Positions 28,092-28,130 of a DNA stretch of 39,694 nt are shown piece after piece. The notes under the pieces were generated by a model that was given only the letters and a program-made list of their open reading frames with translations, made no database searches and was not told the origin of the DNA. The DNA comes from Candidatus Fokinia solitaria (GTDB taxonomy: Bacteria; Pseudomonadota; Alphaproteobacteria; Rickettsiales; Midichloriaceae): contig CALPOD020000010.1 in the NCBI GenBank assembly GCA_943325105.2, forward strand, positions 1-39,694. The letters are read 5' to 3'. The position numbers were made by a program, and so were the translations under genes. Within the stretch, counting starts at the first letter, position 1. Every line of letters begins with the position of its first letter.

Positions 28092-28130
28092 CAACTAAGG
28101 TTTTATAATAACCTTTCGGTCTATGAGTTG
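28092..28130 (-). promoter_or_regulatory. Candidate S6:S18-binding leader motif of rpsF
   Basis: On the minus strand a 5-bp outer stem CAACT (28130-28126)/AGTTG (28096-28092) and a 6-bp inner hairpin AAGGTT (28115-28110)/AACCTT (28102-28097) with a 7-base loop (TTATAAT on the plus strand) are separated on the 5' side by a ten-base bulge, CATAGACCGA, which contains CCG. There is no opposing bulge on the 3' side. This is the topology reported for the rpsF-leader RNA that binds the S6:S18 complex: a bulge with CCG, flanked by a stem and a hairpin, just upstream of rpsF. Base pairing is read directly; the ligand is inferred from family knowledge. Confidence 0.7.

Follow-up and report, generated by a model that had tools for sequence, protein, structure and literature searches.

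Does the reduced genome of Candidatus Fokinia solitaria (Rickettsiales; Midichloriaceae) keep feedback control over its ribosomal protein genes and, if so, by means of what kind of RNA? The question is raised by a 39-nucleotide (nt) element upstream of rpsF, which encodes ribosomal protein S6, in a 39,694-nt stretch of its DNA (GenBank assembly GCA_943325105.2, contig CALPOD020000010.1, positions 1 to 39,694; hereafter the window). A preliminary description, made from the sequence alone, had compared this element to the autoregulatory RNA that binds the S6:S18 heterodimer in rpsF leaders, in which a CCG trinucleotide sits in a bulge flanked by a stem and a hairpin. Here we report that the element carries the two facing strands of this known site, but joined in the opposite order. 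Given its position, predicted fold, conservation in three genomes, strand-by-strand equivalence to the known site and the preserved contact residues in S18, we consider it an even bet that the element is a strand-swapped, probably convergent S6:S18 autoregulatory leader, which would be unable to mask a Shine-Dalgarno sequence and would instead block initiation sterically.

On the minus strand, the element reads CAACT-CATAGACCGA-AAGGTT-ATTATAA-AACCTT-AGTTG from position 28130 to 28092, and an 18-base spacer separates it from the rpsF ATG (28073-28071). The hairpin with its 10-base bulge is confirmed by the sequence and by the predicted fold of the 39-mer, which reaches -5.3 kcal/mol in the form first described: an outer stem, a bulge on the 5' side and an inner stem closed by a loop. 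Its folding stability alone is unremarkable, as 17 of 200 shuffled sequences fold equally well (z -1.4). Two further genomes of the genus, here called G001 and G002, are available next to the 0.99-Mb genome of the window (G000); for the longer leader, the shuffles that fold equally well number 2/200 in G000, 41/200 in G001 and 125/200 in G002.

As a reference for the known site, we assembled a canonical set from E. coli K-12 (L039) and 30 genomes from other classes of the phylum. These 30 are the best S6 scores among 196 matches and form a biased sample, probably of gamma- and betaproteobacteria, judging by their likeness to E. coli. The published motif was taken from the accessible parts of PMC4647458 and PMC10931766 and from the leader sequences themselves. 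A canonical descriptor fits 30 of the 31 leaders; L053 was misassigned and is omitted from the models, and by eye it contains the motif with a longer bulge. The canonical layout consists of UUCCUU/CUCCUU, a G with the rest of stem H2, a hairpin, the 3' strand of H2, the bulge and AAGGAG (AGGGAG in L066 and L067), the latter located 4-10 nt before the start codon. The bulge comprises 9-12 nt and ends in CC[GA]N, and in 30 of 31 leaders the next stem is stacked without a gap, with AAGG or AGGG opposite CCUU. According to the accessible part of PMC4647458, the two cytosines are the S18 contact, equivalent to C719/C720 of 16S ribosomal RNA (rRNA), and are touched by the S18 residues K60 and R63.

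The preliminary description saw a match in topology to this leader, which is wrong: the hairpin is followed by the CCG bulge on its 3' side in E. coli and in 29 of the 30 other leaders, whereas the bulge of the window element is 5' of it. The facing strands are nevertheless equivalent. In E. coli, GGAGGC-UGAAUAAUCCGU-AAGGAG faces UUCCUU-GCCUCC, and in the window, CAACU-CAUAGACCGA-AAGGUU faces AACCUU-AGUUG. Both arrangements have the same polarity, with a bulge of like length on the same side, CC[GA]N leading into AAGG, CCUU on the opposite strand and gap-free stacking of the two stems; what differs is the closing loop, which is found at the H2 end in canonical leaders and at the H1 end in the window element. 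Judging from the sequences, the element is thus a circular permutation of the canonical two-strand arrangement, and it matches the published leader only after such a permutation.

The two cytosines are present in all three genomes of the genus, followed by G in the window and by A in both G001 and G002. In the canonical set, CCG occurs in 26 of 31 leaders and CCA in the other five (L053, L055, L057, L062 and L065). As CCA is also found in canonical leaders, the loss of a strict CCG does not refute the S6:S18 reading. Moreover, CCGAAAGG of the window also occurs in the canonical leaders L061 and L063, and CCAUAAGG of G001 in the five leaders with CCA; the G002 counterpart of CCGAAAGG is CCAUAAGA.

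Across the three-genome alignment, 28 of the 39 columns of the element are invariant, compared to 40 of 92 in its flanks (upstream 31/70, downstream 9/22; Fisher p 0.0025). Invariance amounts to 10/10 in the outer stem, all five pairs of which are identical in the three genomes, to 8/10 in the bulge, to 9/12 in the inner stem and to 1/7 in the loop; within the bulge, CAUAGACC is invariant and the following two bases are GA, AU and AU. Altogether, 31 of 33 pair cells are paired and 9 of 11 pairs do not vary, as far as three genomes can tell. The minimum-energy folds of all three include the outer stem and an inner hairpin. In the ensemble, the outer stem reaches a probability between about 0.2 (G001; 0.19-0.23) and 0.6, and the AAGG/CCUU pairs reach about 0.5-0.7, apart from the mismatched fourth pair of G002 with 0. 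The distance to the rpsF AUG is likewise similar, at 18, 18 and 22 nt.

The proteins point in the same direction. All three genomes preserve the counterparts of E. coli S18 K60, R63, Y23 and K24, and their S18 reads AIKIAR, compared to AIKRAR in E. coli, and the S6 protein of the window keeps the LAYP loop and the arginine of VIR. Aside from this, S18 of the window is extended at its N terminus by about 18 residues compared to E. coli, as is that of G001; S18 of G002 has diverged far more (58% identity) than S6 (83%) or L9 (85%).

How often would such an arrangement be encountered elsewhere? A strict permuted descriptor (stem of at least 5 base pairs, bulge of 9-12 nt ending in CC[GA]N, AAGG, loop, CCTT, stem) matches once on both strands of the window, at the element, and twice in 200 dinucleotide-shuffled windows (about 0.01 per window). 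A looser version, which accepts AAGG or AAGA, yields 6 matches in 200 shuffled windows and none in 20000 shuffles of the 137-nt spacer between the transfer RNA (tRNA) gene and rpsF; over 527 kb of loci (both strands, overlaps included), it finds only the copies of the element in the three genus genomes. The pattern AAGG-N3-15-CCTTNYGG occurs four times in the 0.99-Mb genome, once at the element. We further scanned the regions upstream of rpsF in 51 genomes of the order, 48 of them outside the genus, and in 52 of 61 class-level genomes, the nine omitted being mostly same-genus repeats. Here, the looser descriptor is positive in all three genus genomes, in 0/48 other Rickettsiales and in 0/52 class-level genomes, and a still looser 5'-bulge descriptor finds the genus only within the order set (L001 and L002; its match in L003 is at an unrelated place). 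Unrelated 3'-bulge matches in L014, L132 and L133 illustrate the noise of such descriptors.

A covariance model built from the three genus sequences (R3) gave the same picture for 343 genomes of the order, with strong matches only in the three genomes of the genus (E 3.8e-13 or better). Weak matches appeared in 24 further genomes (E 4e-4 to 0.1), and the nine inspected (L150-L158) showed no S6, S18 or L9 in the stretches examined. R3 is sequence-specific, for which reason the rpsF upstream regions were also scanned with the descriptors described above.

Several results weigh against an S6:S18 site at this locus, among them those of the covariance models. RF02893 (RpsF_leader), the kind of search by which the preliminary description had proposed to check its claim, has no match at the element in the genus with E up to 10. 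This model is narrow: it scores above its cut-off in 3/5 loci with leaders, missing those of L055 and L065, in 1/14 control genomes (E. coli only) and in 0/289 alphaproteobacterial genomes. A model of the canonical leaders (R2) recognizes none of the 51 rpsF upstream regions from Rickettsiales. The intended decisive test was R1, built from 22 canonical leaders with their strands artificially swapped. It did not find the element, scoring 4.6 bits in the wrong register at the element itself, and it had no match in the 52 class-level rpsF upstream regions. GAGGC/GCCUC and AGGAG letters, which this AT-rich lineage lacks, may dominate R1, but its result is still negative.

Further adverse points concern fold, proteins and statistics. 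The best fold of G001 has the inner hairpin shifted by one base (AGGGU/ACCUU), the inner hairpin in the minimum-energy fold of G002 holds a mismatch, and the two unpaired cells are A x C in G002 and G x A in G001 (2/33). In the RNAalifold consensus of the three whole leaders, the inner stem and a hairpin upstream of the element are retained, whereas the outer stem gives way to pairing between the bulge and the start codon. Covariation is weak, with a both-sided change in 1 of 11 pairs, a level reached by 144/500 shuffles. The alignment of relatives has answered the preliminary description in part: none of the three genomes has lost the outer stem or the CC, and the inner stem is almost intact, but CCG is CCA in two of them and compensatory change is confined to that single pair. 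In the proteins, R61 of S18 is replaced by isoleucine in all three genomes, and R44 of S6 is replaced by leucine in the window. The S6:S18 site in the 16S rRNA of the same genome was not found with a 19-mer at up to three mismatches. Moreover, the descriptors were composed after both motifs had been seen and do not provide clean p-values, and since the only three genomes all have the same arrangement of tRNA-Lys and rpsF, their conservation could serve something else.

By the definition of the published S6:S18 leader family, the element is not a member. RF02893 and the published leader run in the order H1 5' strand, H2 hairpin, CCG bulge, H1 3' strand, which is swapped here; in addition, the AUG is more distant than in the canonical leader and the covariance models do not match. 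Besides the equivalent facing strands, with the CC-bearing bulge, the AAGG/CCUU helix and the gap-free second stem, the two have in common their location upstream of rpsF with rpsR downstream and the preserved S18 contact residues.

We have weighed three other explanations. The element might be a conserved leader hairpin unrelated to S6:S18, with a role in messenger RNA stability, in 3' processing of tRNA-Lys or as a translation standby site, whose CC and AAGG/CCUU helix resemble the docking site by chance. We regard this as unlikely, although the failure of the covariance models would be expected for such a hairpin, and a second, upstream hairpin is kept as well. The topology alone arises by chance in 4/1500 shuffles each for G000 and G001, i.e. 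at a rate of about 0.003 in this spacer. An ordinary-order descriptor, which recognizes 28/31 canonical loci, also has an accidental match in the window at 5855-5904 on the plus strand, so that single descriptor matches prove little. Furthermore, a scan of the flanks of 30 loci, which leaves 21 further order-level regions outside, detected the element and tRNA-Lys before rpsF together in all three genus genomes and neither of them in the other 27. Yet the element begins 80 nt past the tRNA and ends 18-22 nt ahead of the rpsF AUG; it is invariant in the stems and the bulge rather than in the loop, as would be the case for a binding site; and CC[GA]N, AAGG, CCTT and stem seldom occur together.

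The RNAalifold consensus points to a variant of the S6:S18 reading, in which UCAUA of the bulge pairs with UAUGA over the start codon, such that a protein-stabilized pseudoknot, or an alternative to the outer stem, would hide the AUG. The five pairs are invariant in all three genomes and would explain why CAUAGA is invariant here but variable in canonical leaders. However, they contain no variation, they compete with one pair of the outer stem, and a complement at least as long would be expected in about 16% of 11-nt stretches drawn at random from the shuffled leader, so that it is not beyond chance; we consider this variant improbable. Least convincing is an ordinary-order S6:S18 leader whose AAGG strand is paired to sequence further upstream. 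In G002, AAGUCUUA upstream can be seen by eye to complement the UAAGACUU that follows the CC, and around the corresponding alignment position G000 and G001 have imperfect complements. However, the AAGG bases pair with upstream sequence at a probability of 0.00 in these two genomes and of no more than 0.07 in G002, and the upstream strand is taken up by its own hairpin. Such a leader would also leave the invariant CCUUAGUUG strand unexplained, and R2 and RF02893 find nothing there; it is very hard to maintain. The S6:S18 reading of the preliminary description thus remains the best available, as far as position, CC bulge and flanking helices are concerned, which are real and kept in the genus, but not with regard to the strand order.

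If the element is a strand-swapped S6:S18 leader, how could it act? Free S6:S18 heterodimer, in excess over its rRNA sites, would dock with its S18 subunit contacting the two unpaired bulge cytosines adjacent to the AAGG/CCUU helix, and docking would stabilize the two stacked stems. The bulky knot of RNA and protein formed in this way, 18 nt ahead of the AUG, could keep the 30S subunit off rpsF and, by coupling, the block would extend to rpsR and rplI. In the E. coli leader, the site masks the Shine-Dalgarno sequence and its AAGG strand doubles as such, whereas the helix of the window element contains none. The AAGGUU strand lies 36 nt from the AUG, too distant to act as a Shine-Dalgarno sequence, and no Shine-Dalgarno core is found within 20 nt ahead of the rpsF AUG. 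As there is nothing of this kind to mask, the block would be steric, most simply in that a knot at -18 would be within reach of an initiating 30S subunit. The genome as a whole seems to use Shine-Dalgarno sequences rarely. Of the 32 open reading frames examined in the window, five have an AGGA, GGAG or GAGG core ahead of the start.

The preliminary description spoke of retention, a view that we doubt: the element was found in a single genus, whose rpsF lies behind tRNA-Lys, and a new gain is therefore as likely as retention. Convergent gain after a rearrangement would fit better than inheritance via strand swapping. Tentatively, and at somewhat less than an even chance, we propose that the docking site was rebuilt independently, with its strands opposite, after a rearrangement had put rpsF behind tRNA-Lys in a genus that seems to use Shine-Dalgarno sequences rarely, to act by steric block or by masking of the start codon. 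The AAGG strand, freed from doubling as a Shine-Dalgarno sequence, could then have shifted to the 5' side.

The placement of rpsF and the presence of rpsR downstream are the same in G001 and G002 (for the window, see the table). The promoter scan of the region returned three sites, compared to 2.1 expected by chance. One of them, TTTACT-18-TATATT, ends at 28131 and belongs to a type no commoner than in shuffles; if used, it would start transcription inside the element, which consequently needs a start further upstream. The hairpin between tRNA-Lys and the element is found at the same place in the minimum-energy folds of all three genomes and has 12 pairs in the consensus fold, one of them with a both-sided change.

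Table. Features of the rpsF leader region in the window
Feature	Position	Strand	Role or counterpart	Basis
Whole leader element, 39 nt	28092-28130	-	Strand-swapped S6:S18-like candidate site	Sequence, fold, three-genome conservation
Outer stem, 5' strand CAACU	28126-28130	-	Canonical H2 3' strand	
Bulge, 10 nt, CAUAGACCGA	28116-28125	-	CC at 28119-28118 proposed as S18 contact, counterpart of 16S C719/C720	
Inner stem, 5' strand AAGGUU	28110-28115	-	Canonical H1 3' strand AAGGAG	
Hairpin loop	28103-28109	-		
Inner stem, 3' strand AACCUU	28097-28102	-	Canonical H1 5' strand CUCCUU	
Outer stem, 3' strand AGUUG	28092-28096	-	Canonical H2 5' strand; gap-free stack on inner stem	
Upstream hairpin	28136-28176	-	Between tRNA-Lys and element; possibly part of leader	Predicted folds
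rpsF (S6)	27660-28073	-	Proposed target and half of effector	TIGR00166, E 1.7e-24
rpsR (S18)	27360-27641	-	Proposed RNA-contacting half of effector	TIGR00165, E 2.9e-22
rplI (L9)	26881-27336	-	Next gene on same strand	TIGR00158, E 1.8e-25
tRNA-Lys(UUU)	28211-28283	-	Upstream	RF00005, ARAGORN
Promoter-like TTGCAA-17-TAAAAT	28327-28299	-	Ahead of tRNA-Lys	Promoter scan

Leaders of the ordinary order do exist elsewhere in the class. In the class set (n=52), R2 found them in L082 (E 0.005; for example CUCCUUGCCGGC...GCUAAAAGCCAUAAGGAG) and L117 (E 0.008), together with weak matches in L105 (E 0.13) and L077 (E 4.6); the former two mean that Alphaproteobacteria do hold some ordinary-order S6:S18 leaders. 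In the accessible part of PMC7247131, the absence of such leaders from Alphaproteobacteria is remarked upon as conspicuous, along with unpublished promising motifs. A varied motif of the form GCCUU...hairpin...AGGGCUUxGCGCCGG precedes rpsF in L076, L079-L081, L083, L087, L093, L097, L098, L107-L109 and L118-L119; these Rhizobiales-like leaders, whose lineage is guessed from their sequences, are possibly a diverged ordinary-order S6:S18 leader. In the class set, the still looser 5'-bulge descriptor matched L100, L114 and some of the Rhizobiales-like leaders, and we set the latter matches aside, since the CC on the 5' side is not kept in sisters (L076, L098, L108) and the CCG that is kept lies 3'. 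Other class members have CUCUCGUGG or AGCCGGAGGGGC blocks upstream of rpsF. Closer to the window, L006 and L008 (genomes G015 and G005, from another genus of the same family) contain an ordinary-order candidate, UUGAAU-AUACUC-AAA-GAGUAU-UGAUCCGA-AUUUAG followed by GAG, which is nearly identical in both, lies about 12 nt before the rpsF ATG and is equalled by chance in 49/1500 and 17/1500 shuffles, respectively.

Precedents for the individual aspects of the proposed leader come from other systems. A Chlorobi candidate for an S6:S18 ribosomal-protein leader (r-leader), as presented in the accessible part of Eckert 2020 (PMC7247131), is likewise a second, lineage-restricted solution before rpsF; going by the published description, the window element is set apart from it by its CC and helix elements. 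Natural circular permutations of RNA comprise hammerhead and twister ribozymes, 5S rRNAs and group II introns, and they share with the window element that the same strands face each other in a different joining order; the accessible part of the source on these (PMC10085705) does not name a ribosomal-protein leader among them. We found no permuted r-leader in the open-licence literature, and the accessible part of PMC11109978 does not mention rpsF.

If the element is indeed a strand-swapped S6:S18 site, S18 would recognize how the strands face each other locally, regardless of the sequence in which the RNA joins them, and such sites could arise more than once. Ordinary covariance searches would then miss strand-swapped leaders. 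The element would also bear on the Alphaproteobacteria, where the absence of S6:S18 leaders had seemed conspicuous (PMC7247131), and on whether reduced genomes, such as that of Fokinia, keep ribosomal feedback.
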